From contig RPFO01000175.1 of assembly GCA_009746045.1 (NCBI GenBank), positions 2,539,634 through 2,603,633 on the forward strand: a stretch of DNA of 64,000 nucleotides, read 5' to 3'. Origin of the DNA: Mesostigma viride (lineage: Eukaryota > Streptophyta > Mesostigmatophyceae > Mesostigmatales > Mesostigmataceae). This document shows, one piece after another, positions 9,450-53,856 of the stretch. Below the pieces are notes generated by a model. It was not told the DNA's origin. It did not search any database and saw nothing but the letters and a program-made list of their open reading frames with translations. Each line of letters begins with the position of its first letter. The stretch's first letter is position 1. A program made the position numbers and the translations under genes.

Positions 9450-10709
9450 TGCTCATCAGCTGCACCTAGCCATGGGTCATGAAACAGTGGCTGAGGAACT
9501 GGCCAAACGGCTGGGGGGTAGTAGCATGGGAAAACAACTCAGGAATGCAGTAAAACTGGCTAGACAACACTGTCAAGAATGTCAGTTCAATAGCCCCAAA
9601 CCTCAAAAATGGCATACTGCAACTCCTTCCACCACTAGGGGCATGATAGTGGGGGATGTAATGCACATCAACAAAGATGTCCAACCCTACCTGATCCTAA
9701 AAGACTCATGGTCCAGGTTCACAGTAATGGAACCCCTACCTGGCATGTCTGCAGGGCAGCTACGTGTTGCACTCATGATTGCTTTACCCAGATTCTACCC
9801 AGTTGACAGAATTTTGCTTGATCAACAATTTTCTTGTCTGACTGACCTGGAAGGGTGTGAAGCAATAGAGATTGCTGGGCTGGAAGATCATGAGGGTCAG
9901 GGGGTCATTGAAAGAACCATCAGATCTGTCAAAACCCTACTAGCCAAAAATCCTTCCAAGGATGCTACTTCAGGGGTCTATTGTGACAGGGCACTCTGGT
10001 GTCATGAAATGTGCACAACCCTAAACATGAGACCTGTCTTGCATGCCAAGTGGGGTGAAGTAATCCCAGCAGGCCTGCAGGCAGGTGTATATCCCCCAGA
10101 GGTGATAGCACTGTACAACACTGCACGTGCACAAACCTCAGCAAAACTGGCAGAAAAAGATAAAACCCATCCCAGGCCAGTATTCCAAAAAGGTGATCAA
10201 GTTCTCTATTACAAGGAAAACAGCTTTGGTAAGGTTGGAACTTGGCTAGGTCCAGTTACCATCCGTGGATTTACCAAAAACAGCAAGACCGTGGAGGTCA
10301 AGCACAATATCAATGGGAAGCGTCACAGGGTGAGCTGTCATAGAATTAAGAAGTATTATTCTCCCATGGCAGACGTGCCTGGGGAAGAGTCTTTAAGCAT
10401 GGACTCACTACTTCTATCTGGCAACTCCAGCATGCCCAGCAGTAGCCCTGAGCCACCAATTACTGCTGTTGACAGCACCACAGCACCCTCTGTGAACCCT
10501 TCCACCCTCAGTGAAGCCAGGCCCACTTCACAACCTGGGGATTGCTTAACCAGGCACGAGGTAGCTGGGTTGGAAGCATTAGCTCAGCCCCAAGGCACCA
10601 AATTGTCTGCCAACCCTCCCGCTCTGAGGTCAAGATTGGCAGTCGCCTTGCAAGCATTACACAGGTCACATAAGCAACAAGCTGCTGTGGCCGAAGGGTT
10701 GGCAAAAGT
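9450..10709 (+). CDS. A integrase segment
   Basis: Resumes the A polyprotein after the LINE. HHCC zinc-binding domain (HQLHLAMGH ... HCQECQ, about 9457-9585), then the catalytic core with candidate D-D-E residues in VGDVMHI (about 9652), ILLDQQF (about 9811) and GQGVIERT (about 9898). A C-terminal SH3-like segment follows (GDQVLYYK ... GTWLGPVTIRGF, about 10192-10272). Inserts the cDNA into host DNA. No aspartic protease precedes it; the protease-like motif comes after it (18582), which is not the usual copia order. A Ser/Pro-rich linker leads to the B1 insertion at 10710, after which the frame continues at 18539. Confidence 0.85.
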
Positions 10710-11325
10710 AGTTAACGTAAAGGATTTACGTTAGATGGATAGAGATTGTTACGCTCTTTCCAACGGCACCTTGAACGCCTCATTTGGTTACGGGACGTAA
10801 AAGTTATGACGTTTCCTAGGCTGTGCCGACAGTACCCGGCGCGCCACTGTGGGCGCGTACGGACACAGGATGTACAAGTGTCACTTTGATAGTCCGCAGG
10901 ACGTTGACAGGACTTGTACAGGACTTGATGGTCAATTGATAGGTAGGCGTGCTGTAGCGCGCCAGGACCTACGAGACAATTGATGCTGAGCAGTGTACGG
11001 ATAGGTCCACAGGACTAGCCGTATGGACAATTGATAGATCTGCGCGCCAAAGGCGTGCCAGAGTCTGTGTAATCAATTGATTGACAGTTCAGCTGTGACA
11101 GTGCAGCTGAATACTTGGACGCGTCCCTAACAACCTATATGTGTGACTTGGTCGCACCGGGACGCTAGTTCTTGCGTGCACGTTCTCTTGGCACTGCGAC
11201 CCTGTCGCCTGTGCTGCGTGCAGTCTTGGAAGTGACGTGACTTACGTCTGTGTTCCTTGTTATTAATAAAGGCAACTTCCTGCAAGAACCATGGCGGAAT
11301 TCTTGGCATTCACTCTCATACAACT
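10710..11325 (+). repeat. B1 5' LTR
   Basis: 616 bp; begins AGTTAACGTAAAGG and ends CTCATACAACT. Contains several CAATTGAT repeats, a TATAT stretch near 11140, ATTAATAAAGG at about 11262 (possible poly(A) signal/R region), and an ATG in good context (ACCATGG at about 11290) close to the LTR end. Confidence 0.94.
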
Positions 11326-11334
11326 CGTATTACA
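11326..11334 (+). promoter_or_regulatory. B1 primer-binding position (CGTATTACA)
   Basis: The nine bases immediately after the 5' LTR. They do not start with TGG, so they do not match a tRNA 3' CCA end. They are exactly complementary to TGTAATACG at 17466-17474 in the 3' UTR of this element. The same pair exists in B2, and a different but equally complementary pair in C. Confidence 0.6.
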
Positions 11335-11349
11335 CGCCTCGTTCCAAAT

Positions 11350-12066
11350 ATGCCAAATTCTGAAGAATTCCGAATTCCCGGCGATGAGGAGATAGCCGCT
11401 CCGCCGGCTGATCCTTTACCAAGACCGGCTGCGCCATCGTGGCAGCAATTGCTTGACGAGGTCACGATATCGCTGGACGAACTTCATCGTCGGCAGCGCG
11501 CAGCTCTTCCATTGCTCGGGGATTTCCCCGAGGACCCCCGTTTGCCGCAGCTGGTGCCGGCTATACGCGCGCCGTTGGACCAAATTCGCAACATTTTGTC
11601 GCAATTTACGGTCCAGGTGCGTGGTGGTTTGCGGTCGGTGACCGAGGTCACTACTGCCATCGAGGAGCTGGACAACGCCATCTCTTCGCTGACCGGCTAC
11701 CAGAGAAATTTACAAAACTGGGCATCGGTACGCACGGGGGGCGCGCCGGTGGTCTCGACAAACTTATTTCAAGACCTCGCATTGCTGTCGCTGCTCACAC
11801 GCGGCGTACGCAGTCGCGAACGCCAGGTTCTCATTAACCTGGTGGCTTTTCTCGCAGCTTTGCGAGAGTGGATTCCCGCAGGTTGGGAATTGTTGTCAAT
11901 TTTTACTCATCCTCTGCGCCTCGTCGCGCGTCGGCGCATCGCAACTTTCGCGCCGGGGAGCACACCGGTTTTAATACATACCGGCGCAGGTCCGGCACAC
12001 ACGCCGGATATGGAGGATCCTGAGTTTACCTATGAGTACTGCGATTTCCGGGGCCTCGACTACTGA
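11350..12066 (+). CDS. B1 ORF1, accessory protein of unknown function
   Basis: 238 codons from ATG at 11350 (MPNSEEFRIP), 24 bp after the LTR, to TGA at 12066. An in-frame reading also extends back into the LTR, but the ATG after the LTR is more plausible. Acidic Pro-rich N-terminus, then a largely helical body with a heptad-like stretch (about residues 75-120), a hydrophobic region (about 150-200) and an acidic aromatic C-terminus ending CDFRGLDY. No family recognised. B2 keeps the same protein in broken form, and C has a different ORF in the same place, so an ORF upstream of gag appears characteristic of this lineage. Confidence 0.75.
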   Translation: MPNSEEFRIPGDEEIAAPPADPLPRPAAPSWQQLLDEVTISLDELHRRQRAALPLLGDFPEDPRLPQLVPAIRAPLDQIRNILSQFTVQVRGGLRSVTEVTTAIEELDNAISSLTGYQRNLQNWASVRTGGAPVVSTNLFQDLALLSLLTRGVRSRERQVLINLVAFLAALREWIPAGWELLSIFTHPLRLVARRRIATFAPGSTPVLIHTGAGPAHTPDMEDPEFTYEYCDFRGLDY

Positions 12067-12229
12067 GTCGGCCATTTTTTTCCAGTGCTCGTCGACATTT
12101 AGTCGATTTTTCAGCGGCGATTCGCGGGGGCGGCGGCGACACCGGCGCAGGCGGCAGTTGCGACAATTTTTTGTACATACTTTATTCTGCTGCTTTGCTG
12201 AGGTGTTTTTGAATAGCTTGTAGTGCAGA

Positions 12230-13343
12230 ATGGCAGACGGGCGCCGTAGCAAAGGTGCCCCAGCCAGTGGGAATAATGGTGGTGCTGGTAGTGGGACAGC
12301 TCACGTAGATGACGTGGGTGTCACCGGGGAAATTACCAATTTCATCACAATAATAATACACAAGCTGTTCTTGGTTATGATCTCACTACCCAGGGTTTGC
12401 TTATTGTGAATCAACTGCAACCTGTCACGTCAGACACAAAGCCCAAGCAGGCTGAGGAGTTTGTGGAGGGGCTAGAGGGGTTTCCAAGTTTGTACGGTGG
12501 TACAAACTATTACCAGATCTGGATAGGTAGCCAGACTTTTGGCAAGTGTACAGATCAGATAAAGGACCTCACTAGAGAGTGTAAGAAGGCCAACAAGGCC
12601 TGGTCCAGCTACGTGGCAGAGTTAAAGGAGCTGCTAGAGGATCAGAGGAAGAAAGTGGGGATCCATTGGCAGGATAAATACCAGGGGTGGGAGGTCAAGG
12701 GGACCTGATCCAGAACTTCCTTAACTATTGTAAAATGGTTGAGGAGGGCAGGGCTCACGGCTTTAATGTTGCTGACAACATAGCCCTGACAAACTGGCTC
12801 AAGGTTTCTGGGCTGGACAAGGCTACACGTGGCTCCTTAAAGGTCATGTGTGCCCCACACTCAACCCTCAAGGCCTACAAGGTCATAATCAAACAAGCAC
12901 TCGAGGCAGAGGAGCTGTTTGAGGGTGGAGTGCCAGCAGTGAAGGCTACCCAGGCAGGTGGGCGTACCCAGGGTGGCTCCAAATCGTCTGAGGCTGACCG
13001 AAGCCAAGGAGGGCGTAGGGGCAACCACAACAAGCGGAAGGCCAATCATTCACCCGACCCTGACGGGAGGTCACACTCCAAGTCGGTGTTCAGGCGGGTG
13101 GGTGGTCAGCCCAAGCAGGGCAACGCGTCTGACAACGGGGGCAGTGGCCAGGGCAAGTCAAAGATACAATGCTACCTGTGCAAGGGGTGGGGGCACATCA
13201 AGAAGGAGTGTCCCAGCTTCAAGAAGTCCCAGGGCCAGGGCAGCAACAAGAATAACAACAACAACAAGAAGAAGAACAACAACAAGTCCCAGGCAGGCCA
13301 GCCTTCAAAGGGCAGTCAGCAAGAAGACAACAAGGAGCAGTGA
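12230..13343 (+). pseudogene. B1 gag (two frameshifts)
   Basis: Starts ATGGCAGACGG at 12230, matching B2 gag at 47550. Contains a conserved capsid-like region (EEFVEGLEGFPSLYGGTNYYQIW, in two parts about 12450-12530; AHGFNVADNIALTNWLKVSG, about 12750-12810). A basic Gly/Asn-rich tail with zinc knuckle CYLCKGWGHIKKEC (about 13172-13213) follows. Frameshifts at about 12345 and about 12700 (one G missing relative to B2) split it. Ends with TGA at 13341-13343, followed by CTG and by coding sequence: probable readthrough to pol. Confidence 0.85.
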
Positions 13344-16300
13344 CTGTCTGAGGCAACCCCTACACACCTTAATTCACCCAGGGGGAGGCCAGGTGCTCCA
13401 ATGCAGATTTTATATCTGGGCAACAAGAGGGTGATCTCCAGGTTCAGGGTGGCCCCAGGTCACCTGGAGAGGTACAGGTTCCTATGAAGACGTCCTTGAC
13501 AGCTGATGCAGCTGTAAGAATGTCTGACCCCATGCATCCTCGTGCTGGGCACGAGGGTGGACCTCTCATTTTGAGAGAAACCAATGTACAACCACAGAGG
13601 GGTGTGAAGGCCTCTGGTGGTATGCATGTGGTCCCTGCTGGCGGTCCAGGTGTTGGGCATGAGCAGGGTGACTCAGGCTCTGAGTCAGAACAGGATGGAA
13701 GTCAGCATGGTGATGCTGGACAACCTGACAGCACAGTCCTGACTGTGCCAGGGACTGCTTCCTCTGTGTACCAGGAGTTGGGTGCCCGAATCCACAACAT
13801 GTTTGGGCATGCCACTTCTCTGTCAAACAACTTTGCCTTCCGTATGGGCAGGGCACCCCTTCTCAAGGCGTGTCAGCAAGCTGCCTCACGGTGTAAGTGC
13901 CAGTTGTCCTCCAACAAGCCCAGGAAATCACATGCCAAAGCTCTACCTCAGAGCATTGGTGATCTGCAGTGTGATATCCAACACATCAGGGGCATGCAAC
14001 TGTTGGTGTGCGTGGACAGGTACACAAAATACAAGGTGCTGGAGCATTTACCTTCTATGAAGAACAGGTACTTGCTGGCTGCCCTGCAGAATGTAAGAGC
14101 CAAGTTTCCTACCACAAGGATCCAGGTGGACATGCAGTTTCAGCATCTCAAGGGTGATCCTACCCTTCCTGAGTTGCTGGTTACACCTAGGGAGGCTCAT
14201 GGGCAGCAGGGTGCTATCGAGAGGGCAATCCAGGAGGTCAAGAAATTGATCATCTCTGAAGACTGGGTACCCTTGTCTGCACCTGCACTTGTCAGGAGTG
14301 CATGGCTGAGGAACGTGGAGCAGCAGCTGAACAGCAGGGTTAACTTCTACTATGATGGAGTTGCTGTCAGCCCAATGGGTCTATATCATGGCCTGTGCCC
14401 ACCACATGTGCTGGAGGGCTGGAAACATGCTGCACATGTCACCTTTGCCAAGCTGAGGGAGAAGGACCGGGGTTGGAAGATGCTGGAGCCACAAGTGGGT
14501 CAGAAGGTCCTAGCTTGGAAGGAACCTAGCCTTTATGGCAAACGTGGTAGCTGGAGTCCTGGGGTGGTTACCCAGGTTGATGAAGCTAGCCACGCATGCT
14601 TGGTCAGCATGGAGGACGAACCAAAGCATGTGCACCGGCTGAGTTGGTCATATGTCAAGCCTAACCTGATGAATGAGGGCAGTCAGGCACAAGGCTCACA
14701 GGATCTGCAGGATTTTCAGGTCCCAAGTGACATCACTGACGCAACGACCACATCTGTTGCAGGGGAATCTGTCAGCCCTGGCCAGGTTGCAGAGGTACTT
14801 GTTGAACAGGCTGCAAGGTCAACAGCTGGGGAGTCAACTGTCAAGCCCAAGGCACTAACCAAGCCCAGGGGGACAAGTTTGGCTGGATTGATTGGGGCTC
14901 TACAAAGAGCCAAGAAGCAGCCCAAGGTAGCCAAGCTCAGGTGGCATGGCAATCTGGGGCTGGACACTGCCTTAGAGGTAGACACTAATTCTCAGGTTTC
15001 CATCATTGGGACCAGGGCTGCAGCAGGGTACAGCATGACTGAACCCAGCTATCAGTTTGTGTCTGACTTCAGTGGCGGGGTACACGTGAAGGTACTGGGT
15101 GAGGTATTCATTCCTATCCTTGGACAGGACACTGCTTTTGTGTCTTGGAGGGCTATCAAGGACCTGCTCTTCTGGGGCAGAATTTCCTATGCCAGGATGG
15201 GGTAGTGATCACGTCCTCTCTCCTGACTAAGGAAGGGGCTGGTCAGGTCCCACTGATTAATTTCAGGACCACTCACCTATCACGTGCAGTAACCAGGACG
15301 GTTAAGCGTGTGCAAGTGTGCCAGGGGCAGGAGCCCTTGGTTGATGACCTCATATTGCCAGCTGCTAGTCATCCAAGCAGTTTGGGCATTGGTCCTCACT
15401 CACTTGCTGGACACAGCCCTATCAACTACCAAGGCCTGGTGAAGCTCATGTCCTCTCCCATTATGTGTCCCCAGGTCACACTGGGTCTGATTAAATCTGG
15501 GGAGGACTGGATCTCCAAGAAATGCGTGGAACCTGTCAATGACCTGCCTCCTGCACGACGTCTACTCAAGCTCAAGTTTGTCATCAAGATGAAGGAGGTG
15601 GACGGGGTCAAGGTACCACATGTCAGGCCAGTGCTGAATGAGTTCAAGGGTACTGGTGAGTGCACTGCTGAGGAGTTGTATACCCCTGGCATGCTGCATG
15701 ACACTTGGAGGCTGCTGCTGTGTGTATTTCTAGGCCTTCTCAACAAGGGCTTGGACTATGGCTCAGTGGTGGTAGACTTCAAGAGGGCATTTCTGGAGGG
15801 GGATGCAGATGTGGCACAGGAAAAGTGGGAGGGCAAGACGCCTTTCTATGTCAGGGTGCCTGCTGTATGGAAAAGGGACATTCACACTGAGTTCCTTAAA
15901 ATCCTCAAGGGCCTGGAGGGCCTGAGGTCAAGTCCAATAATCTGGAGGGAGACTCTCAACCGTTTCCTGAAGGAGCATTGCAACTTGAAGGTCTCTCCTG
16001 TAGACCCCTGTCTGTTTCTGGGGCAATGGGAAGGCCTACCAGTGTATGCTTCGCTGCACGGGGATGACCTACATCTGATAGCTCCCACGTCGTGGCTTAA
16101 GGAGCTGATCTCCATCATTAAGTCCAAGTTTCCTCTGGGTAGGGAGCAATGGCAGGTGGAGAATGAGCCTCTGCTGTTTGTGGGCATGGAGGCCACACTG
16201 GTGAAGAAGGGGGGGAGTGGCGTATGCTGCTGGTGGGGGGCAATGATTATCAAGAGACCCTCATTAGCAAGCTTCCTCCAACCATCACACAGGCACTGTG

Positions 16301-16967
16301 TCCTATGGTGAGGGGCATGGTTGCTTGGGTGGCAGGCATTTCCAGGCCAGACCTTATGGTCATAGCCAGGTTGCCTGATGACATGCTGGTGGAGCTAGGG
16401 TCTGCCAAGGTGGCTGATCAGGTCAGGGCTTCATCTGGCATTCTGTTGTCTGCAGTGGATTTATCACAACCCATTTGCATGGAGCTGTATGTGGATAGCT
16501 CAATGGACAGCAGGCAGGTCTCCAAGGTCAGGGGCAGGGCTGCAGGGCTCTTTGTGCTCAGACAGGAAGGCCTGGGGAGTTTGGTGAGCTGGTTTAGTCG
16601 CCTGCACAAACGGGTGGCTGTCAGCAGTGATGTGGCAGAATGCAGGGCTATTTGTGAAGGCATTCACACAAGCCTTTATCTGAAGGAGTTGCTTCATCAG
16701 ATGACTTCTAACACTCCTTGGCCACTTCAGGTTACCACTCTTCTAAAAACAGACTCCATGGGGATGGTGCAGTTTGTGCACAGGCAGATGGCCAGAAGTA
16801 GGGACTTGGATTATCTCCTTCTTAAGGAGTTGTCCTCCTTGGCCAATATTGAGCATATCCCTGGGGTTGACAATCCTGCTGATGCTTTGACCAAGCTAGT
16901 GCAGAAGGCAGCAGTGCAATACAAGGTTCTTCAGTCTCTGATGGACCCATCTCAGCAAGCTGTCTAA
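13344..16967 (+). pseudogene. B1 pol: integrase, protease, RT, RNase H (frameshifted)
   Basis: Order as read: HHCC integrase finger (HNMFGH ... CKCQ, about 13795-13910), core with LQCDIQHI (about 13967), VDMQFQHL (about 14127) and GAIERAIQ (about 14212), C-terminal SH3-like region (QKVLAWKEPSLYGKRGSW, about 14500-14560). Next a retropepsin-like motif DTNSQVSII (from 14981) with ALLGQNFL in the next frame (about 15170). RT: YTPGMLHDTW, VDFKRAFLEGD (about 15773), LKGLEGLRSSPIIW and HGDD (16057-16068). RNase H with YVDSSMD, SSDVAECRAI and KTDSMGM (about 16487-16760). Frameshifts at about 13376, about 15140 (one T missing versus B2) and at the G run 16209-16215. Ends TAA at 16965-16967. Confidence 0.88.
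16209..16215 (+). promoter_or_regulatory. G GGG GGG heptamer at RT/RNase H frame change
   Basis: In the RT frame the sequence reads AAG GGG GGG AGT. A -1 slip yields GAG TGG CGT and enters the RNase H frame exactly. Identical in B2 (51527-51533). It fits the X XXY YYZ slippery pattern but could also be a lost G or a homopolymer miscall. Confidence 0.4.
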
Positions 16968-17249
16968 GCTGGTGCCTGGTTATAGGGCATTGGAGAGCAG
17001 ATTGTGTGGTAGTGTCAGCATTGTGACTGGCATAATACCTGTATTTTAGTCTGTACTAAGGCTCATGGACCATGGTACACTCACTCTGATTTTAATCAGG
17101 ATACAGCCAGGTTTTGGCTGGGGTTCATGCTGTTGACTACACAAGGTTGACAGGTCCATTACAGACCATGTATTCTATTTTAAAAGAAATGTATATTTGT
17201 ACATACTTCTCACAATGGTCTGGGAACCTTTATTCTGGGGTTTATAGGG

Positions 17250-17266
17250 CGGGGTTCGATTCCCTG
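17250..17266 (+). promoter_or_regulatory. T-arm / B-box-like hairpin in B1 3' UTR
   Basis: CGGGGTTCGATTCCCTG: a 5-bp stem (one G-T pair) and the seven-base loop TTCGATT. The inner GGTTCGATTCC matches the RNA polymerase III B-box consensus. No complete tRNA cloverleaf is evident around it. Repeated at 52568-52584 (B2), and as TGGGGTTCAATTCCCCA on the minus strand at 25515-25499 (C). Confidence 0.6.
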
Positions 17267-17406
17267 GTATTATGTTTCTACAAGCTGGCCTGTTCAGGTG
17301 TTTGCCTGTTCAGACTTCCCTAGTTCCCCAGGGCAGGATTTAATTGTTGCCTATGTGTTTCATTTTGTCATTTGTTTGCTGTGGCAGTTTACCATCTGGC
17401 AAGTAG

Positions 17407-17429
17407 ACGGGCGCCGTAAGACGGGCGCC
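17407..17429 (+). repeat. tandem ACGGGCGCC pair, B1 3' UTR
   Basis: ACGGGCGCC-GTAAG-ACGGGCGCC. C has GCGGGCGCC-ATAAGA-ACGGGCGCC at the equivalent place. The 14-mer AGACGGGCGCCGTA at 17405-17418 also occurs at the gag start of B1 (12235-12248). Confidence 0.75.
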
Positions 17430-17465
17430 AATAGACCCCTGTTGAGAGAATGACAGGCAAACTAT

Positions 17466-17474
17466 TGTAATACG
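17466..17474 (+). promoter_or_regulatory. anti-PBS: complement of the B1 leader
   Basis: TGTAATACG is the exact reverse complement of 11326-11334. A primer ending in ...ATACG-OH here would pair flush with the LTR boundary, as a minus-strand primer must. Confidence 0.55.
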
Positions 17475-17898
17475 CCTTACTTTGTCAAGTGGTATTTTAA
17501 TTGTCATGGATTTATTGTACTTATATTGAATATGTACTGGGTTTTATGGGATTAGTATCTGGGATTAATGTAACTCACCGCCAGAAGGTCATTGTACTGG
17601 AGGCTCTACCGAGGTGATGGGATTAATTCCTGGAGAAGACCTCATAGAATTAACCTGTATGTATTTAATTTTGTGTGCTTCTAATATCTGGTGGTACTCT
17701 GTAATGCCACTTCCATAGGTTTTTATCCATTTCTCATGGAATGGTTTTCCCTGTGGCAGATCTGTTTCTTTTCCAGTTCCTTAAAAGAAAAGGCTGGGGG
17801 AATGGCAATGGCCATTAAAGACATCTGTTCAAGCTTCAAGCTGGAGTGAAGGACATTTCAAGCTACTTCAAGGGTCCCTGGCAGGGGATGTGATCCCT

Positions 17899-17917
17899 AA
17901 AGAAAAGAAGGGATTGG
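17899..17917 (+). promoter_or_regulatory. B1 polypurine tract
   Basis: AAAGAAAAGAAGGGATTGG abuts the 3' LTR. It resembles AAAAGAAGAAAGGGTTGG at the same place in C. Confidence 0.85.
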
Positions 17918-18533
17918 AGTTAACGTAAAGGATTTACGTTAGATGGATAGAGATTGTTACGCTCTTTCCAACGGCACCTTGAACGCCTCATTTGGTTAAG
18001 GAACGTAAAAGTTATGACGTTTCCTAGGCTGTGCCGACAGTACCCGGCGCGCCACTGTGGGCGCGTACGGACACAGGATGTACAAGTGTCACTTTGATAG
18101 TCCGCAGGACGTTGACAGGACTTGTACAGGACTTGATGGTCAATTGATAGGTAGGCGTGCTGTAGCGCGCCAGGACCTATGAGACAATTGATGCTGAGCA
18201 GTGTACGGATAGGTCCACAGGACTAGCCGTATGGACAATTGATAGATCTGCGCGCCAAAGGCGTGCCAGAGTCTGTGTAATCAATTGATTGACAGTTCAG
18301 CTGTGACAGTGCAGCTGAATACTTGGACGCGTCCCTAACAACCTATATGTGTGACTTGGTCGCACCGGGACGCTAGTTCTTGCGTGCACGTTCTCTTGGC
18401 ACTGCGACCCTGTCGCCTGTGCTGCGTGCAGTCTTGGAAGTGACGTGACTTACGTCTGTGTTCCTTGTTATTAATAAAGGCAACTTCCTGCAAGAACCAT
18501 GGCGGAATTCTTGGCATTCACTCTCATACAACT
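17918..18533 (+). repeat. B1 3' LTR
   Basis: 616 bp, matches 10710-11325 with about three substitutions, followed by the AAAGT duplication at 18534-18538. Confidence 0.95.
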
Positions 18534-18538
18534 AAAGT

Positions 18539-23665: not shown

Positions 23666-24347
23666 GGCACCTGAAAACACACATACAGGCAATTGTTTGC
23701 AAACTCACTCTAATCAATGGTACAATGCAAAATCATGATTGGGGACCCAAATAAACATGTTTGGTGAGTTTTCCATGTTGTTGGGGGTACTACCCCCATC
23801 TATACACCGCTACTGAGCTGAATACGAGCAAAGGCGCTACCTAGGGTTGGTTATGCCCCAGCCAATCCACAAAACAGGTGGACCCAAAAAGCACAAGCCA
23901 CGTAGTAATGTCTGGGCACATCGCAAACAGCAACTTAGATGGGGCATATGGACACCGCCGTTCAAAAAATAGCCCGCGGCGCCAAAAACGCGATTTTTTT
24001 CACTTTAAAATATAATAAAACAAATCATAAACTTGTCAAACCAAGCCAAAAAGCACTAGTCAAATTCTGCACTAGCGGTCCAAGCCACGGTCCAAGTTTG
24101 AGGTCAATCGGACAACCCTAGCTCATTAAGTTATTGCGTTTGGCAGATGCCACTCTCACGACCGCTAAAGAAGTTTTTCTTTGTACAAGGCCACTTAGGG
24201 CGTGAAGACCCTCCTGTTTTATCGGCTGAGCGGGCACTTTTAGGGTCAGGCGATGCCGATGGCGAGGCATTGAGCCCGGGAGGTTGCTGGGCGACCACGA
24301 CTAGTGTCACCGCTGCCTGCCGGAGCTGGCAAAGCTGCAGCCGCAGC
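23666..24347. other. unassigned sequence between G1 and C
   Basis: No recognisable gene. Starts where G1 RT similarity ends. Contains GGGGGTACTACCCCC (palindromic, about 23784-23798) and an A/T-rich patch at 23990-24030. A 110-codon frame would continue from 24147 across the C insertion to 32930, but its composition is not convincing as a gene. Confidence 0.5.
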
Positions 24348-24994
24348 AGTTAGCGAGCAGCCAGAACTGTGAGTTCCTGGTCTCTCACGCCACACAACGG
24401 GATGAGCCAAAGTTGCAAGGCAGCAACCTTTTAACCCGTGCACCAAGCCACGACCACGGTGAGCGTTTCCACGTCCAATGTGGGCGCCTCGGTTCGTGCT
24501 TGCCAAGATAGCTGGTCATCCCCCATGACCAAGCTATATCCTTTGCGTTGTTCCTCGTTCCCATCGGCGTGACGAGGCACGTGCAGGCAGGCAAGCAAAT
24601 CCTCAACGTCCACTGGCATCAGTGCAGAGCCAGGACGAACTAGATTTGCCTAGACTCTGTAACCTAGGAAGTACAGGACCTGTCACAAGCCTGCAAGGCC
24701 TAGTATTCTTGCAGACCTGTGCCAGTCCTGTATTCCACCAGCCACAGGCTGCTGCTCCTCTGGTCTACGTGGACCACAGTCACGTGATAGTCAGGCTAAG
24801 CCTGTGCAGGCACGGCCTGCCACGTGTCCTGTCCACTATACCAGAGGACTGTACCCTAGTCGGCCACGGACGGCTAGGACTTCGGGACCTCATATCTTTC
24901 TCGTCCCTTGTCTGTTTCAGGCGGTCAGCACGGCGTTGGAAAGGTCTTTCCAAACTGCATCCACTTAGCATATTGGTTGCCCAAAATGCTAACT
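24348..24994 (-). repeat. C 3' LTR
   Basis: 647 bp, nearly identical to 32150-32796 (a T/C difference near 24710/32510 noted). In sense orientation preceded by the polypurine tract at 25014-24995. Confidence 0.93.
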
Positions 24995-25014: not shown

Positions 25015-26005
25015 AGCTGGACCAGCTTGAAACAAGCCTAACCTTGCTTGTGCCCACTCAGCCACAGACCGCTTGGTCCCTTGAGGTTGATCAGACCTTT
25101 GAGGGCCCAGGTTCCTGCCTCCTTTGGGTAACAACATATCTGCCCTTGGACCAGGCTAGGTGTACTGGCCAGTGAATCAGAGGTCACCCCAGGTTATCCC
25201 CTGACCCCTTGGTCAGCTCCCAACCTTTCCTTGGGAACTTGGTGCTAGATTAAAGTCAAGGCACATTACCTAGTCCAATGGCTGGGATTACAGGATGCCA
25301 AGAACGTACTATTGTGAGTTCCTGATCTTTCACAGTTATCACAGGCGCCCGTTCTTATGGCGCCCGCCTTGGCCAGCCTTTCCCTTTTATGCTCAAAGAG
25401 ACTCAGGTAGCACCTACACAAATACTGCCTTATTGGGGAGCCCATGTCTTCACTGGGTGTTAAGCCCAGGAATCACTCATGCCAGGCTGTGGCTCTGCTG
25501 GGGAATTGAACCCCACCCCAACCTCCAGGTTTATAGGTGACCTGGAACTTTACACAAGAGAAACATTACAACCATGAGAACAACATGAGAATGACATGAC
25601 ATGATTATGTTTTATTCAAGCATTATATAACCCAGAATGTGGCCCCCTGGCAACCATGTTCCACATGGTCACACAACCAGGTTCTTTATTAGCAACAGGT
25701 TGGAAACAAGCACTAGAAAACATATATACAGCAACCTGTAAGAACCAACATTCGGGTTGCCCTTGCATGGCCTAACTGTTTGAGGCCAAAGGCGTCGACT
25801 TAAGTCCTGGCGACTCTTCTGAACCCCATGGGGAGGGCCAGGCATGATTCTCAGCTGGTAGGAGTGACATTCCACACCAACTCCTGTCCAGGAGGGTGTA
25901 CCTAACCCTGAAGGACCGGCTGTCAACCAGTAAGCACCAGTCACCACTTGGTACTTTGGTCAAGCAGCCCACTGGGGACACCCAAGCTGAAGCAAGGCCT
26001 GGTCT
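25015..26005 (-). other. C 3' UTR
   Basis: About 1 kb non-coding. Sense order: T-arm-like hairpin TGGGGTTCAATTCCCCA (25515-25499), tandem GCGGGCGCC/ACGGGCGCC (25367-25344), then CAATAGTACG (25314-25305). Just upstream of the last site, GTGAAAGATCAGGAACTCAC nearly repeats a U5 segment of the LTR (GTGAGAGACCAGGAACTCAC). Confidence 0.75.
25305..25314 (-). promoter_or_regulatory. anti-PBS of C (sense CAATAGTACG)
   Basis: Exact 10-base complement of the first ten leader bases CGTACTATTG (32149-32140, sense). Occupies the same relative position as TGTAATACG in B. Confidence 0.55.
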
Positions 26006-29000
26006 CTATGGCCGCCCGTGTAAGGGGTCCATGAGCCCACGGAGCAGGGGGTACTGCCTCTCCGCCTTCTCCTCCAGCTTGGTGAGGGCATCTGCAGGGT
26101 TGTCCACACCAGGCACATGTTCAATGTGAGCTAGGTAGGACATCTCCTTGAGCAACAAGTAGTCAAGGTCCCTGCTCCTGGCCAGCTGCCTGTGCACAAA
26201 TTGCACCATGCCCATGCTATCAGTCCTCACCAGTGTGTGCAGCTGCAACCTACAGGAAGCCACTTGACATAGCTGGTAGAAGAGCTCCCTCAAGTAAAGA
26301 GCAGTATGCAGCCCTTCACAGATTGCCCTGCACTCAGCAATATCACTGCTGGGTGTAACCCTGTTCTGCAACCGACTGTACCAGGTAACAAGTGAGGTGT
26401 GATCTTGCTCCAGGGTAACTAATGCTGCTGCCCTGCCCCTGACCTCTGTGACCTTCCTATTATCCATAGAACTGTCCACATAGAGAACCATGTCAAGGGG
26501 CTTGTACAAATCCACAGGACCCAGTATGAGAGGGGGAGACATCATGACAGCCTGCACCACACTCTCAGCACCCACCTCAACCAGCTGGGAATCAGTAAGT
26601 CGACTCAGAACCAGCAAGTCAGGGGCACATATACTTGCAAGCCATGCCAGCATGCCCCTGATGGTAGCACACCTAGCCTGCGTGATGGGCTCCTGCAATG
26701 CATCTACAATCTGCTGTGGGTAGTCCTTACCACCCTCCATCCTGATGAACCACGAGCCCTTGGCTTGGAACAACGTAGCCTGCATGCCACAGAAGACCAT
26801 AGGCTCATTCTCCACCATGTGCTGTATCTTACCCAGCTCAAACCGCTTCTGGATCTTAGCCAAGACAGCCTCAACCCAGTCTGGTGGACCTATGAGATGC
26901 AGGTCATCACCATGCAGTGAGGCAAAGACAGGAAGGCCATTGTGGGACCCTTGGAACAAACAGGGATCCACTGGAGACACAGAAAACCCACAAGTATCTT
27001 CAAGAACTTCTCTAGGCTCTTTCTCCAGATAATGGGACTGGACCTGAGACCTTCCAACCCTTTCAGAATTCTCAGGTACCTGGCCTTTATCTCTGCTCTC
27101 CATACAGCAGGTACAGTCACAAAGAAAGGAGGGATATCTCTCCAAGTCTGCCTAGCCTGATCTTGGTCACCCTTGAGAAAAGCCCTCTTGAAATCAATCA
27201 GCACAGAGCTATAGGGCACACCCTTAACCAGAAAAGACAGAAATATACACAGCAGAATCCTCCACGTGTCATGCAGCATCCCTGGAGTATAGAGCTCCTC
27301 ATCTAACAACTGGCCAGTGCCATGATACTCGGTTACAACTGGTCTGACATGTGGCACCTGGACACCATCAACCTCCTTGAGCTTGAGGACAAACATCAAT
27401 CTGAGCAGCTGGTGAACTTCTGGCAGCTCATCCACAGGTTCTGCACAGTTGGAAACTATCCACTCATGCCCAGAAGCAACAAAGCCAAGAGTCCATGCCT
27501 TAGCCATCTTGGGGCTTTGCATCATCTCGACTAGCTGGCGCCAGGGAATAGGACTGTGAGCAGCTATCTGGTACCTGTTTACCCCTAACTGCCTTGGATC
27601 AAAGGTGGTTGGGATTATCAACAAGTCCTCAGCTATGGGCTCCTGACCTTGAGGACCCTCAGCTGGCTGACTCCTAACAGCCTTCACCGCCACTGCAAGA
27701 CCCTGGGAATAGTGATATCTTTCAAGGGGGAGGCTGCCCCTGCCTTCTAGTGCCAACTCATCAGAGGTCAAAGTAACCCCTGGCATGCACAAGAAGTTCT
27801 GACCCAGAATGGCAGGCCCCTGATAGCCCTCTACCACACAGAACGTGGTGGGCACCCCTAAGATAGGCACACTCACTTCCCCAAGGATCTTCATGGACAC
27901 CTTTCCTGAGAAATCAGACACAGCAAGGCAACTGGGATGGGACATCTGTAAGCCTACAGCATCCTCTTCCCTGATGACAGACACCTGTGAGTTGGTATCT
28001 ACCTCCATTGTAGCTGCCCAGCACGACCCCCACCCCGTGAGCTTGGATACCTTGGGATCATGTTTGCTGCGCATGAGTGCTCGGATGACGTCCGCCATGA
28101 GAGGCCCCCGGGCCTTAGGTGGCTGCCCCGTCCCCTCTGGCCTTGTGACAGTTGCTTCAGCAGCCTCCTGCTCGTCATCTTCCAGCAGGGACAGACCATC
28201 ATCCACCACCAGAGGATTGTTAGCTGCTGCTGCCTGGCTCTGGCCTGGCTCCTCAACCCAGCTGGGAGGGCCTGGCCCGTCTGCAGGCCAGATTGCATGT
28301 GGCCTTCTTTCCTTGACATGAGCCCAGGACAACCTGTACACGTGCCTTGGATCCTTTTCCAAAGCCACCAGGCAAGATCTGTTAGCTTCTTCCACACGAG
28401 TGACAACCCCATCCTGCCACTTCCCCCGCTTGCCTGGAATAGATGGTTCCTTCCACATCCTGACCTTCAGCCCCACCTGAGGCCTCAGCACATTCCAGTT
28501 CTTGTCCTTACGTCTCAGCTGGGCAAATAACCTATCTGCCTTCCTAAGACTGGCCTGCACCACGTTCTCAGGCAACAAGCTATACTGCAGGGCCAGGGGA
28601 GAGACAGCCACACCATCAAAGTAATAGTTAACCCTGTGGTTCAGCTGCTCTTCTATCCCCTTACACCAGGCTGCCCTCTCTAAGGCAGATGCCACAAGTG
28701 GCACTGACTCTGCTGCTAGCACCACTGTCTTCACTTCACGTATGGATCTCTCTACAGCCCCTTGCTGCCCATGACTCTCCCTGGGGACTACTACCAGCTT
28801 ACAAGGCAGCTGGTCCTGATGCTTGAGCAAACAGTCAAACTGCAAGTCTGCCTGCACACTCTTGCACACCCCAAAGCCTGGGATCAGGGCCTTCATACCC
28901 AACAACAAGTGGTGCTCCTGCATACCAGGCAGAACGTCTATCAGCCTGTATCTGCTGAACCTGTCCACCCCCACCAATATATACAAGCCCCTGATATGCT

Positions 29001-29569
29001 GGATATCCATCTGGATGTCGCCACGCTCCCTAGCAGGCTCCCTAGCATGGGACTGAGGTGGGTGAACAGCATTCTCCTGGCAACCACAGTTCTCAGCAGC
29101 AGCCTGGCAGCCTCCCACAAAGGCTCCCTACCTAGCTTCCAAGCAAACATTGCTGCCTGCCCAGAATGCCCAAACATGTGATGCAACTATGGCCAGCCTC
29201 AGCATAGCTCAGCACTCTGTCAGTACTGACCTGGCGAGACGTCTGAACCGTGTGTGGGGACACATGATCCACTCCTGAGGTTCCAGGGCTTCCCTGCAGG
29301 CCATCCTGACGCCCCAAGTCAGGTCCTGCACCCTGGACCGCTCCAGGCCCTTCCAGCAAGGTCCCTTGGCCCTCCAGGCCAGCACCTGCTGGAGACCCAC
29401 CACCTGCATGAGGCATAGGGAATTCAGCTGCAGCATTGTTATTGCAATCCAGTGGAAGAACAACATCTTTACACCCTTGGTGCTGCACAAGGGGCACACC
29501 CCCATCCTTATGTACATCCAGCACACCTTCCCCAAGGGGTGATTGACTATTTACAGGGGATGATGCTAG
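26006..29569 (-). pseudogene. C pol: integrase, protease, RT, RNase H (frameshifted)
   Basis: After the gag UGA the frame continues (LASSPVNSQSPLGEG). IN finger HHMFGHSG near 29180; core with IQMDIQHI (about 29020), VQADLQFD (about 28850) and GAVERSIR (about 28755); C-terminal RMWKEPSIPGKRGKW (about 28460). Retropepsin-like DTNSQVSVI (about 28000) and AILGQNFL (about 27810). RT with VLIDFKRAFLKGD (about 27190), LKGLEGLRSSPIIW (about 27060) and HGDD (about 26910). RNase H: LYVDSSMDNR, SSDIAECRAI, RTDSMGM. Frameshifts lie near 29120 and near 27000. Unlike B, there is no frame change between RT and RNase H. Ends at 26006. Confidence 0.88.
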
Positions 29570-32139: not shown

Positions 32140-32149
32140 CAATAGTACG
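32140..32149 (-). promoter_or_regulatory. C primer-binding position (sense CGTACTATTG)
   Basis: First ten bases after the 5' LTR in sense orientation. No TGG. Perfect complement of 25314-25305 in the 3' UTR. Confidence 0.6.
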
Positions 32150-32796
32150 AGTTAGCGAGCAGCCAGAACTGTGAGTTCCTGGTCTCTCACGCCACACAAC
32201 GGGATGAGCCAAAGTTGCAAGGCAGCAACCTTTTAACCCGTGCACCAAGCCACGACCACGGTGAGCGTTTCCACGTCCAATGTGGGCGCCTCGGTTCGTG
32301 CTTGCCAAGATAGCTGGTCATCCCCCATGACCAAGCTATATCCTTTGCGTTGTTCCTCGTTCCCATCGGCGTGACGAGGCACGTGCAGGCAGGCAAGCAA
32401 ATCCTCAACGTCCACTGGCATCAGTGCAGAGCCAGGACGAACTAGATTTGCCTAGACTCTGTAACCTAGGAAGTACAGGACCTGTCACAAGCCTGCAAGG
32501 CCTAGTATCCTTGCAGACCTGTGCCAGTCCTGTATTCCACCAGCCACAGGCTGCTGCTCCTCTGGTCTACGTGGACCACAGTCACGTGATAGTCAGGCTA
32601 AGCCTGTGCAGGCACGGCCTGCCACGTGTCCTGTCCACTATACCAGAGGACTGTACCCTAGTCGGCCACGGACGGCTAGGACTTCGGGACCTCATATCTT
32701 TCTCGTCCCTTGTCTGTTTCAGGCGGTCAGCACGGCGTTGGAAAGGTCTTTCCAAACTGCATCCACTTAGCATATTGGTTGCCCAAAATGCTAACT
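32150..32796 (-). repeat. C 5' LTR
   Basis: 647 bp; sense start AGTTAGCATTTTGGG, sense end GCTCGCTAACT; flanked by GCAGC at 32797-32801. Confidence 0.93.
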
Positions 32797-32801
32797 GCAG
32801 C

Positions 32802-35697: not shown

Positions 35698-36296
35698 TGT
35701 CAAAAATCCTAATAATGCGTCAACGAATGAGCTCAAATGTTGCGGCACAACTCATTTCATTAATACAATAAAAGACGCATATATAGAATTTAAGGACCGT
35801 GACCGGTGTCCATTGCCAAGCCACAAGGCAACTGGCCCACCATCAGGTAACGTGAAAAGGTGCACGCCGACCTCTTAAACAATGTCCAATGTCGGCTGCA
35901 CACATTATCCCTACGTTAACTTAACACATAAAGTGTCTCGACTTGAACAACTGGCACACAAAATCCACTAGGCAATGATGCGAATATTCGGCACCAATAT
36001 TCGACCCCACTATTGCGCGGCGCTAGGAGTTAGCCACCGCCAAATGGCACGAGATACTCACGCCCTACAAACCGTACCATGCAACCACAAGGTAGAGCCG
36101 AATTAATCCTAACTTCGGCACCTAATATCTTTGTGCATACTCAACTGTCCGTCATAAGAAAAGTACCGCCGGAAAGAACACGGCAAGCCCTACTCAGCCC
36201 TAATAATATCCTTGGCCAGAAAATACAGAAGATTGGCCACAACATAACATAGGCTGGCAAACGGGCACATCCAGGGTTTATACTAAAACCCTGACA
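35698..36296 (-). repeat. D 3' LTR (sense)
   Basis: 599 bp, TGTC...GACA in either orientation; adjoins the minus-strand polypurine tract. Confidence 0.92.
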
Positions 36297-37707
36297 CCCC
36301 CCTTGCACGTTGCCAGTGCAGGGTCCAATGAACGTCAAGTCCCCCCTCAACTAGGGTAGGGCTTGCCGGGTACAACATACCCCAGCAACCCCCCCTTACC
36401 CGGGAAGCCCCTCCCAAGGAACCATCCAGCAACACATTCACTGAAAAAATGCCATCCTGGTCATAACAACAAAGGTGCTACATGCCTGCGTCTCTTCCAA
36501 AATACATCCAGGCGTCCCTAGAGGTATAAACTGACAGCCCCAGCGTCCCAGGTCTGATGCAGAAACACAGCAATAAGTCACAACAACTACACTTGCCAGG
36601 AATAGCACACATGGGCAAACACTGCCCCATCAGGCTACCAATAGCCCTAAAATGGACCACCACGGTCCCAAGGCCTCCACGGCCCCACGCTGGCACGCCG
36701 TCGTGCCAACAAACTCCCGGGAGTGATCAGGTCCCGAGCATGGAAAGTCAACCAAGAACTTCCCCCAGAGCGCTCCCATAACAGGTTGGACTGATCCCAA
36801 CCTCCAGACTGGCCAAAACACTAGGCTGCACATGCTAGTTTGCCTCGTCCATTCAAAAACACAGCTGACCACCAAGTTTGCATGCAAAGCAGGCGCGTAC
36901 ATCCCAAAGTAGGTCAATACAGACCACAGGCCACGTTAGGCCCCACAAATGTCGTCGCGAGCCAGTCTCATGTCAACCCCCCCCCTCAAGAAATAAGTGG
37001 GGGCAAATATTTTTGTCAGCTTTAAAATGTCACAAGCTCCCTTGGCTTAGAGCTTCTAAAATAACATGCAGCTCACTGGTACTCCTGACCAGCTTCAAAA
37101 TCAAAAACCCACTGGCATAGCCAGCTTCAAAAGAGAGACCATGCTGGCACTCCTGGCCAACATCTTCATCGCCAACAAAAAGCCGGTAGGCAGGCAGTCC
37201 TCGTCGACAAAAAATGCTGGAAATTCCGCAGGCTGCGCCACCAAAAATGGCGATAATCCGTTGCGCAGGTCGCTCGCAAAATTCCAGCCGACGTCCGCTC
37301 CGAGCCACATGTTGATGCGCAGGTCACTGGTACAGAAAAAGAGAAAAAAGTCTGCACCCAGCTGGAACCAGAGCCTTGACCTCGCCATGCGGGGCTCAAC
37401 GCCAGGCGGCGCCAGCCCACAGCAAACCCGAAACATGAAAGTTCCGCTGGCTTTGACACATATAACAACTCGCCTGCGTGGCTGCGCTGGCCCAGGCCTG
37501 TCGACCCATGAAATTTCTGCCCGTTCCGCCGAACTTCAAATTCAAAATGCTGCGACGTATGAATCCTCACGACATTGCTCACGAAATTACGTAACAACAC
37601 TGCCGCCATCAATTATATGCGCCGGCAGGGTAAAATGGCTTCATCATGGTCACAAGAATGTCGTTCAAAGTCGTCTCAAAGGTGTGGAACTTTCCCTCCC
37701 GATACCA
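36297..37707 (-). other. D internal region
   Basis: No retroelement domains on either strand. The longest frames are 218 codons on plus (37066-37722) and 148 on minus (37612-37166), with unbiased composition and no family resemblance. The two ends carry PBS and PPT. Confidence 0.75.
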
Positions 37708-38306
37708 TGTCAAAAATCCTAATAATGCGTCAACGAATGAGCTCAAATGTTGCGGCACAACTCATTTCATTAATACAATAAAAGACGCATATATAGAATT
37801 TAAGGACCGTGACCGGTGTCCATTGCCAAGCCACAAGGCAACTGGCCCACCATCAGGTAACGTGAAAAGGTGCACGCCGACCTCTTAAACAATGTCCAAT
37901 GTCGGCTGCATACATTATCCCTACGTTAACTTAACACATAAAGTGTCTCGACTTGAACAACTGGCACACAAAATCCACTAGGCAATGATGCGAATATTCG
38001 GCACCAATATTCGACCCCACTATTGCGCGGCGCTAGGAGTTAGCCACCGCCAAATGGCACGAGATACTCACGCCCTACAAACCGTACCATGCAACCACAA
38101 GGTAGAGCCGAATTAATCCTAACTTCGGCACCTAATATCTTTGTGCATACTCAACTGTCCGTCATAAGAAAAGTACCGCCGGAAAGAACACGGCAAGCCC
38201 TACTCAGCCCTAATAATATCCTTGGCCAGAAAATACAGAAGATTGGCCACAACATAACATAGGCTGGCAAACGGGCACATCCAGGGTTTATACTAAAACC
38301 CTGACA
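37708..38306 (-). repeat. D 5' LTR (sense)
   Basis: 599 bp, matches 35698-36296. Its inner edge adjoins the PBS TGGTATCGGGAGGG. Confidence 0.92.
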
Positions 38307-46025: not shown

Positions 46026-46642
46026 AGTTAACGTAAAGGATTTACGTTAGATGGATAGAGATTGTTACGCTCTTTCCAACGGCACCTTGAACGCCTCATT
46101 TGGTTAAGGAACGTAAAAGTTATGACGTTTCCTAGGCTGTGCCGACAGTACCCGGCGCGCCACTGTGGGCGCGTACGGACACAGGATGTACAAGTGTCAC
46201 TTTGATAGTCCGCAGGACGTTGACAGGACTTGTACAGGACTTGATGGTCAATTGATAGGTAGGCGCACTGTAGCGCGCCAGGACCTATGAGACAATTGAT
46301 GCTGACTAGTGTACGGATAGGTCCACAGGACTAGCCGTATGGACAATTGATAGATCTGCGCGCCAAAGGCGTGCCAGAGTCTGTGTAATCAATTGATTGA
46401 CAGTTCAGCTGTGACAGTGCAGCTGAATACTTGGACGCGTCCCTAGCAAGCTATATGAGTGACTTGGTCACACCGGGACGCTAGTTCTTGCGTGCACGTT
46501 CTCTTGGCACTGCGACCCTGTCGTCTGTGCTGCGTGCAGTCTTGGAAGTGACGTGACTTACGTCTGTGTTTCCTGATTATTAATAAAGGCAACTTCCTGC
46601 AAGAACCATGGCGGAATTCGTGGCATTCTTACCCTCACAACT
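46026..46642 (+). repeat. B2 5' LTR
   Basis: 617 bp, AGTTAACG...TCACAACT. Followed by CGTATTACAACT, which is partly duplicated (CGTATTACAACTCGTATTAC) in this copy. Confidence 0.94.
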
Positions 46643-46678
46643 CGTATTACAACTCGTATTACACGCTCTGTCAAAAAG

Positions 46679-52285: not shown

Positions 52286-53215
52286 GCTGGTGCATGGTTA
52301 TAGGGCATTGGAGAGCAGATTGTGTGGTAGTGTCAGCATTGTGACTGGCATAATACCTGTATTTTAGTCTGTACTAAGGCTCATGGACCATGGTACACTC
52401 ACTCTGATTTTAATCAGGATACAGCCAGGTTTTGGCTGGGGTTCATGCTGTTGACTACACAAGGTTGACAGGTCCATTACAGACCATGTATTCTATTTTA
52501 AAAGAAATGTATATTTGTACATACTTCTCACAATGGTCTGGGAACCTTTATTCTGGGGTTTATAGGGCGGGGTTCGATTCCCTGGTATTATGTTTCTACA
52601 AGCTGGCCTGTTCAGGTGTTTGCCTGTTCAGACTTCCCTAGTTCCCCAGGGCAGGATTTAATTGTTGCCTATGTGTTTCATTTTGTCATTTGTTTGCTGT
52701 GGCAGTTTACCATCTGGCAAGTAGACGGGCGCCGTAAGACGGGCGCCAATAGACCCCTGTTGAGAGAATGACAGGCAAACTATTGTAATACGCCTTACTT
52801 TGTCAAGTGGTATTTTAATTGTCATGGATTTATTGTACTTATATTGAATATGTACTGGGTTTTATGGGATTAGTATCTGGGATTAATGTAACTCACCGCC
52901 AGAAGGTCATTGTACTGGAGGCTCTACCGAGGTGATGGGATTAATTCCTGGAGAAGACCTCATAGAATTAACCTGTATGTATTTAATTTTGTGTGCTTCT
53001 AATATCTGGTGGTACTCTGTAATGCCACTTCCATAGGTTTTCTCCATTTCTCATGAAATGGTTTTCCCTGTGGCAGATCTGTTTCTTTTCCAGTTCCTTA
53101 AAAGAAAGGGCTGGGGGAATGGCAATGGCCATTAAAGACATCTGTTCAAGCTTCAAGCTGGAGTGAAGGACATTTCAAGCTACTTCAAGGGTCCCTGGCA
53201 GGGGATGTGATCCCT
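52286..53215 (+). other. B2 3' UTR
   Basis: T-arm-like hairpin 52568-52584, tandem ACGGGCGCC 52725-52747 and anti-PBS TGTAATACG 52784-52792, all identical in sequence to B1. No genes. Confidence 0.8.
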
Positions 53216-53234
53216 AAAGAAAAGAAGGGATTGG
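53216..53234 (+). promoter_or_regulatory. B2 polypurine tract
   Basis: AAAGAAAAGAAGGGATTGG abuts the 3' LTR. Confidence 0.85.
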
Positions 53235-53851
53235 AGTTAACGTAAAGGATTTACGTTAGATGGATAGAGATTGTTACGCTCTTTCCAACGGCACCTTGAA
53301 CGCCTCATTTGGTTAAGGAACGTAAAAGTTATGACGTTTCCTAGGCTGTGCCGACAGTACCCGGCGCGCCACTGTGGGCGCGTACGGACACAGGATGTAC
53401 AAGTGTCACTTTGATAGTCCGCAGGACGTTGACAGGACTTGTACAGGACTTGATGGTCAATTGATAGGTAGGCGCACTGTAGCGCGCCAGGACCTATGAG
53501 ACAATTGATGCTGACTAGTGTACGGATAGGTCCACAGGACTTGCCGTATGGACAATTGATAGATCTGCGCGCCAAAGGCGTGCCAGAGTCTGTGTAATCA
53601 ATTGATTGACAGTTCAGCTGTGACAGTGCAGCTGAATACTTGGACGCGTCCCTAGCAAGCTATATGAGTGACTTGTTAGCTCTAGGACGCTAGTTCTTGC
53701 GTGCACGTTCTCTTGGCACTGCGACCCTGTCGTCTGTGCTGCGTGCAGTCTTGGAAGTGACGTGACTTACGTCTGTGTTTCCTGATTATTAATAAAGGCA
53801 ACTTCCTGCAAGAACCATGGCGGAATTCGTGGCATTCTTACCCTCACAACT
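53235..53851 (+). repeat. B2 3' LTR
   Basis: 617 bp; differs from the 5' copy at a cluster near 53673-53683 and a few single sites. Followed by GGCGA. Confidence 0.94.
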
Positions 53852-53856
53852 GGCGA

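Follow-up and report, generated by a model that had tools for sequence, protein, structure and literature searches.

Leader and 3' UTR complementarity flush with the long terminal repeat in copia-like retrotransposons of Mesostigma viride, and a candidate minus-strand primer within the element

Copia-like retrotransposons at the locus

The DNA analyzed here in full (hereafter the window) is a 64 kb stretch of contig RPFO01000175.1 of Mesostigma viride (GenBank assembly GCA_009746045.1, positions 2,539,634 to 2,603,633 of the forward strand), which has a GC content of 54.5% and carries many nested long terminal repeat (LTR) retrotransposons. Two structurally complete elements, B1 (10710-18533) and B2 (46026-53851), and a minus-strand element of the same group, L2 (24348-32796), are the subject of this report, in that the bases directly following the 5' LTR of each are exactly complementary to a segment of its own 3' untranslated region (3' UTR), which is a candidate for the primer of minus-strand DNA synthesis. 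The features are compiled in Table 1.

The LTRs of B1 and B2 were 616-617 bp in length with the unusual ends AGTT...AACT, and those of L2 were 647 bp with the ends AGTTAG...CTAACT. The 5-bp target-site duplications (TSDs) fix the LTR edges, and therefore positions 11326 (B1) and 46643 (B2) are the first bases after the LTR. Because the two LTRs of each element were 99.5% (B1) and 98.9% (B2) identical, both elements were judged to be recent insertions. In both, the 3' LTR was preceded by a purine tract ending ...GGGATTGG.

The internal part of B1 and B2 was found to comprise a zinc-knuckle Gag-like frame, an integrase-like region, an RVT_2 reverse transcriptase (RT), and an RNase H-like region, all of them divergent. 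Between the leader and the Gag-like frame of B1, a further frame (11350-12066) gave no Pfam match at E ≤ 0.001. The divergent RT matched Pfam RVT_2, the RT type of the Ty1/copia superfamily, with E = 7.7e-7 in B1 (29.4 bits, curated cut-off 31.6) and E = 0.039 in L2, and the integrase lay upstream of the RT, as in that superfamily, on weak rve matches below the cut-off (E = 0.015 in B1 and 0.1 in L2). The RNase H-like region, of putative activity, was 60% identical between B2 and L2, with a Pfam RVT_3 match at E = 0.16 in L2 and none in B2. The canonical order in Ty1/copia elements is protease, integrase, RT, and RNase H. Because a weak L2 protease match (E = 0.2), in a stretch conserved in B2 (EVDTNSQVS...LGQNFL), was located between integrase and RT, B1/B2 and L2 are assigned from their sequences to a group of LTR retrotransposons for which we use the label copia-like. 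The protease-like stretch apparently lies between integrase and RT at 13484-16967, 49326-52285, and 26006-29118 (minus strand), an unusual order for copia-like elements; a structure model of the protease was too poor to use (pLDDT 36).

Leader and 3' UTR complementarity in two families

A sequence-only reading of the window had claimed that the nine bases after the 5' LTR of B1 are the exact reverse complement of a segment in its 3' UTR, and this proved correct: CGTATTACA (11326-11334) is matched by TGTAATACG (17466-17474), which ends 443 nt upstream of the 3' LTR. B2 holds the equivalent pair, with CGTATTACA at 46643-46651 and TGTAATACG at 52784-52792. Two further points of that reading were likewise borne out, namely that the pairing is flush with the LTR, since the TSD-defined edges put the site on the first post-LTR base in B1 and B2, and that the leader lacks TGG, none being present in the first 40 nt of B1 and B2 (or of L2). 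Its use of B1 and B2 as two separate observations did not stand; both carry the pair, but because their 3' UTRs are near-identical they are not independent evidence and count as one. Taking both strands of the window together, CGTATTACA/TGTAATACG occurred at six places, two of which were additional to those first noted, 46655-46663 in the B2 leader and 705-713. The latter belongs to a stretch outside the elements (TGTAATACGCC, 705-715) that matches the B 3' UTR site over 11 bases, and its flanks, judged by eye, are unlike the B 3' UTR.

L2, which lay outside the original finding, was the sole independent relative in reach in which a changed leader could be checked for a matching change in the 3' UTR. 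Its pol was about 66% identical to that of the B elements at the DNA level (best 1.36 kb) and 50% identical at the protein level over the stretch compared, and outside the coding sequence the two families were hardly alignable, with no blastn match there. The L2 leader begins, again flush with the 5' LTR, with CGTACTATTG, and its partner CAATAGTACG ends 310 nt upstream of the 3' LTR. Over the first nine leader bases, B and L2 differ at positions 5, 8, and 9 and are identical at 1-4, 6, and 7. All three differences were compensated in the 3' UTR (T-A to C-G, C-G to T-A, and A-T to T-A), so that leader and 3' UTR had both changed, position by position, and cross-pairing of the B leader with the L2 3' UTR, or the reverse, reached 4 nt each way. 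The complementarity is real, and a second, independent family shows it too, with changes that match.

For every leader offset between -12 and +20, the length of the longest exact complement in the 3' UTR was determined. It peaked at offset 0, with 9 nt in B1 and 10 nt in both B2 and L2, and B2 showed a second peak (9 nt at +12) from its duplicated copy of the site. At offset -1 it fell to 3 nt, which means that in neither family does the pairing run on past the LTR edge. When the whole element was scanned for flush matches, excluding 3' ends within the first 20 leader bases, the next-best exact match was 5 nt in B1 and 4 nt in B2 and L2. A complement of at least 9 nt in the 3' UTR was available to 0.30% of 5,622 internal positions of B1, and one of 10 nt to 0.16% of 6,124 positions of L2, and dinucleotide-preserving shuffles of the 3' UTR reached the real match in 18 of 20,000 (B1) and 2 of 20,000 (L2) trials. 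The best complement over the body of the control LTR elements L1, L3, and L4 was 6, 7, and 5 nt, respectively; for L1, the whole element was covered in the flush scan, which found no complement above 6 nt, and its left part in the offset scan. A chance match, or a functionless inverted repeat shared by descent, could draw on the shortness of 9-10 nt and on the fact that the first finding was picked from a long read-through, and is nevertheless rendered very improbable by the recurrence in two families, the shuffle counts, the peak at the LTR edge, and the compensation of three of three changes. The ancestral repeat is disfavored in particular because its matching would not persist once both halves had changed. 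The terminal inverted repeats of the LTRs were also rejected as a source, as the TSDs put both sites outside the LTRs.

B1 and B2 were 78.7% identical across about 1.2 kb of leader and first frames, where 9% of the 12-base windows were identical, yet the first 12 leader bases of B1 were unchanged in the second leader copy of B2 (from 46655). Along the elements, identity formed a mosaic of about 78-86% per 200 bases over about 11309-12680 (leader through first frames) and 92-100% from 12680 on, through pol and the 3' UTR, a pattern that suggests recombination between subfamilies. Exactly at the leader, B2 has a 12-bp tandem duplication, CGTATTACAACT (46643-46654). A primer copied from the 3' UTR predicts CGTATTACAA, which is present in B2 and not in B1 (CGTATTACAC), and the duplication could be a reverse-transcription scar, formed if plus-strand strong-stop DNA had ended within the copied primer (CGTATTACAA) and re-annealed via ACAA at the LTR end. 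We give this possibility little weight, and simple slippage explains the duplication too.

Among the other elements of the window, L1 (3329-20462), within which B1 is nested, has an RVT_1 domain and LTRs of 473 bp that are 100% identical; their ends resemble those of L2 (AGTTAG...CTAACT), but the L1 leader begins with TGAATTTTATTTGC, without TGG at its start. L3 is a gypsy chromovirus with an ordinary-looking, TGG-containing leader (CTGGTTATCGGAGG). The five best protein matches of its pol, 66-87% identical, carry no species name; the 19 species-named entries among the 120 matches listed were 12 from Haematococcus, 3 from Closterium, 3 from Cordylochernes, and 1 from Tanacetum, the best-scoring of them being from Cordylochernes, a distribution that is at most a hint of a green algal host. 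Nested in L3, 599-bp direct repeats (35698-38306; 99.8% identical, ends TGTC...GACA) flank 1,411 bp, an arrangement resembling that of a non-autonomous LTR element. Self-comparison of the window showed dense tandem repeats at its right end (62808-64000).

Table 1. Coordinates of the LTRs, the complementary sites, and the 3' UTR motifs of B1, B2, and L2 in the window.
Feature	Position	Strand	Remarks
B1 5' LTR (AGTT...AACT, 616 bp)	10710..11325	+	TSD AAAGT at 10705-10709 and 18534-18538
B1 leader site CGTATTACA, putative primer binding site	11326..11334	+	flush with 5' LTR
B1 T-arm-like hairpin, 5-bp stem, loop TTCGATT	17250..17266	+	3' UTR
B1 paired GGGCGCC repeats, local hairpin predicted	17406..17429	+	3' UTR
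B1 3' UTR partner TGTAATACG	17466..17474	+	putative primer 3' end at 17474
B1 3' LTR	17918..18533	+	purine-rich ...AAAGAAAAGAAGGGATTGG just before
B2 5' LTR	46026..46642	+	TSD GGCGA at 46021-46025 and 53852-53856
B2 leader, site twice (CGTATTACAACT and CGTATTACA)	46643..46663	+	first copy pairs over 10 nt
B2 T-arm-like hairpin	52568..52584	+	3' UTR
B2 paired GGGCGCC repeats	52724..52747	+	3' UTR
B2 3' UTR partner TTGTAATACG	52783..52792	+	
B2 3' LTR	53235..53851	+	
L2 5' LTR	32150..32796	-	TSD GCAGC at 24343-24347 and 32797-32801
L2 leader site CGTACTATTG	32140..32149	-	flush with 5' LTR
L2 T-arm-like hairpin, 5-bp stem, loop TTCAATT	25499..25515	-	3' UTR
L2 paired GGGCGCC repeats	25344..25368	-	hairpin in 45-nt fold, not in longer fold
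L2 3' UTR partner CAATAGTACG, exact 10-nt complement	25305..25314	-	putative primer 3' end at 25305
L2 3' LTR	24348..24994	-	

The 3' UTR segment as a candidate primer

The 3' UTRs of the B elements and L2 were found to share an order of features, namely a T-arm-like hairpin, paired GGGCGCC repeats, and the partner site, the last lying 224 nt (B) or 210 nt (L2) past the start of the T-arm motif and 45 nt (B) or 39 nt (L2) past the repeats. The hairpins, CGGGG TTCGATT CCCTG in B and TGGGG TTCAATT CCCCA in L2, have one stem pair altered on both sides, and a search of the window for the T-arm pattern with two mismatches allowed returned three places only, the 3' UTRs of B1, B2, and L2, each an exact match. 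When 45-nt pieces of either family were folded, the two GGGCGCC repeats paired with one another. Overall, the arrangement is suggestive of a structured RNA module. The T-arm motif presumably resembles box B of RNA polymerase III promoters, and no box A was recognized by eye beside it. No known RNA family was found at gathering level in the window or at E ≤ 1 in the B1 3' UTR; four weak RNA-family matches in the L2 3' UTR fell below the cut-off and were taken as chance. ARAGORN, run with the bacterial code, found no tRNA gene in the window.

In LTR elements, the 3' end of the minus-strand primer sets the end of U5. A complement that starts on the first post-U5 base and stops there, in two families, is primer-like, and a cyclization signal needs no such fit. 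Because the pairing ends exactly where minus-strand synthesis must start, the best reading is that a segment of the element's own 3' UTR acts as the minus-strand primer, which we hold to be somewhat more probable than an even chance. In such a mechanism, the RNA would be cut just after the partner segment, that is, after 17474, 52792, and 25305 (minus strand), and the freed end ...UACG-OH would anneal to the leader and prime minus-strand DNA at the LTR edge. The T-arm-like hairpin and the GGGCGCC repeats may help RT, Gag, or a processing enzyme to recognize the primer RNA. By analogy with Tf1, the element's own RNase H may make the cut, acting on an RNA duplex; RNase H of the Tf1 RT is reported to cleave an RNA duplex in self-priming (work cited in PMC4600332).

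The same complementarity might instead serve to circularize the genomic RNA and thereby aid reverse transcription or packaging, with another primer starting the minus strand, as in the CYC5:CYC3 pairing of Ty1; circularization was also named in the sequence-only reading. There, a 14-nt complementarity between the 5' and 3' UTRs promotes reverse transcription, and mutations that restore the pairing complement the defects (PMC5454406, PMC4974528). Such end-to-end pairing would show the same covariation. It is also favored by the co-fold of B2, in which the predicted partner of the site was the second leader copy, 12 nt off the LTR edge and hence not flush with it, and which weighs against a primer from the 3' UTR. 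In Ty1, however, the cyclization site (nt 155-168) lies downstream of the primer binding site (PBS; nt 95-104), whereas here exact pairing begins and stops on the first post-LTR base in both families, where a separate primer would need the same bases. We consider this explanation the main rival, though an unlikely one.

Alternatively, the primer could be a host RNA, such as a tRNA cut in the anticodon arm, and the 3' UTR segment a mimic of it that serves packaging or competition. Two different RNAs, ending in ...UGUAAUACG and ...CAAUAGUACG, would then be needed, each copied into the matching element. Eight anticodon-arm registers per leader were examined, with the 3' end at nt 35-42, and those with U33 in place (three for B and two for L2) ended inside the anticodon or gave G or A at position 32. 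G or A is unusual at this position of tRNAs, and neither leader reads as a normal anticodon-arm complement. Compared with the element's own segment (-11.3 kcal/mol in B and -12.6 kcal/mol in L2), a half tRNA-Ile paired less well (-7.1 and -5.3 kcal/mol), and a half tRNA-iMet reached -10.8 kcal/mol in B, a small margin, and -4.9 kcal/mol in L2; both half tRNAs were rejected as primers, since neither paired without gaps or mismatches. Priming by half tRNAs is reported for copia elements, Osser with 1/2 tRNA-Met among them (PMC6317226), and the T-arm-like motif in the 3' UTRs would suit a tRNA mimic, but on these grounds a host primer appears improbable.

Tf1/sushi elements are known to self-prime with the start of the transcript, which lies within the 5' LTR, and copia TAR elements are predicted to do so (PMC6317226). 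No exact flush complement longer than 4 nt was present in the LTRs of B1, B2, or L2, on which basis such a primer was rejected for exact pairing, and we regard it as extremely unlikely here. A local leader hairpin like that of GalEa elements was rejected as well; a GalEa pair would register as 6 nt (before its mismatch) in the whole-element flush scan, where the maximum besides the 3' UTR partner was 5 nt (B1) and 4 nt (B2 and L2).

Taking the three functional readings (own primer, end-to-end pairing, and host RNA) together, the pairing of leader and 3' UTR is very likely functional, as judged from the sequence. A number of observations weigh against the 3' UTR segment being the primer itself. 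The duplex is short (9-10 nt). When G-U pairs were allowed, a second flush match of 10 appeared in L2 (element position 4188, well before its 3' UTR), and B1 and B2 had other flush matches of 8; once bulges were permitted as well, the site in B1 was outscored for the 12-nt leader by three other places. Under the latter scoring the site ranked first in B2 and L2, and duplex energy of this kind was discarded as a criterion, as it does not distinguish the B1 site from other places. In local folds, parts of the leader or of the site are buried, and the predicted gains on co-folding were modest (-4.3, -6.9, and -10.6 kcal/mol). Pretzel-like flanking helices were predicted in B1 and L2 but were not the same in B2, and were rejected. 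The GGGCGCC hairpin was missing from the consensus fold, itself weak as derived from two sequences (-20.25 kcal/mol), and from the longer L2 fold, and the T-arm and GGGCGCC patterns were drawn up post hoc from these very sequences. A cut in the template RNA would part it from its 3' LTR; because of this, a second packaged genome RNA or a small fragment of the 3' UTR is a more likely donor than the template. Bearing on current activity, pol is split across several frames in B1, B2, and L2. Finally, the independent families at hand numbered just two (B and L2). No relatives were found elsewhere in protein searches, among about 8,000 candidates scored in each, or in viral contigs and prokaryote genome contigs, each scanned with two short peptide patterns. 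A single DNA-pattern match in the viral contigs (L001) was a GC-rich stretch and was taken as chance.

Comparison with known systems

LTR elements and retroviruses usually depend on host tRNAs, with tRNA halves and a self-primer of 5' LTR origin as the escapes described; for plant LTR elements, three types of primer are distinguished, the complete tRNA, the half tRNA, and the self-primer released from the 5' LTR (PMC6317226). In the Tf1/sushi group (Tf1, Tj1, and Tosmo), the primer comes from the element's own RNA and is freed by cleavage (PMC4600332, PMC10085805). The arrangement proposed here is similar in that the primer would be part of the element's own RNA and is complementary to the LTR-adjacent site. 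It differs in that Tf1/sushi elements take their primer from the start of the transcript, in the 5' LTR, whereas the partner here lies in the 3' UTR, and in that B and L2 are copia-like and not chromoviruses. Elements of the copia TAR lineage (Houba and Osr-1), within Ty1/copia, are predicted to self-prime, but their self-primer comes from cleavage of the transcript in the 5' LTR (PMC6317226).

Fungal GalEa copia elements are described as lacking a PBS; a hairpin follows immediately on their LTR, with the mechanism given as unknown (PMC5445492). Their Conserved Hairpin Site resembles the present case, both kinds of element being copia or copia-like with no tRNA PBS seen, and both having a 9-bp motif adjoining the 5' LTR and, elsewhere, its complement. 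In GalEa, CHSeq1 is palindromic, the pair contains a conserved A/A mismatch, and the partner is found within the leader, 12-41 bp downstream, whereas in B and L2 the partner is about 6.1-6.8 kb away, the pairing is perfect, and the site is not palindromic.

With regard to contacts between the two ends of the RNA, the bipartite PBS of Ty3 likewise joins 5' and 3' regions at initiation (PMC5371799), but there the tRNA bridges them, and here they pair directly. CYC5:CYC3 of Ty1 is also a perfect long-range 5'-3' complementarity, which in Ty1 promotes efficient reverse transcription; its site is separate from the tRNA-iMet PBS, whereas here the complement sits at the PBS position itself. Even if the pairing did no more than circularize the RNA, cyclization and priming would be linked more closely than in Ty1, given that the covarying 5'-3' contact falls exactly at the initiation site.

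Among the listed results of searches in open-licence PubMed Central papers, none described an LTR element whose primer comes from its own 3' UTR, and such priming would be a new variant of self-priming. If it holds, a primer supplied from the element's own 3' end would let the primer site evolve together with its partner and give each family a private primer, and the problem would arise of how an internal 3' end is formed without loss of the 3' LTR. Beside the three types named above, B and L2 would represent a fourth class of LTR-retrotransposon primer, located in the 3' UTR as a structured RNA with a T-arm mimic, co-evolving with its binding site and independent of host tRNA, a proposition whose chances we consider evenly balanced.

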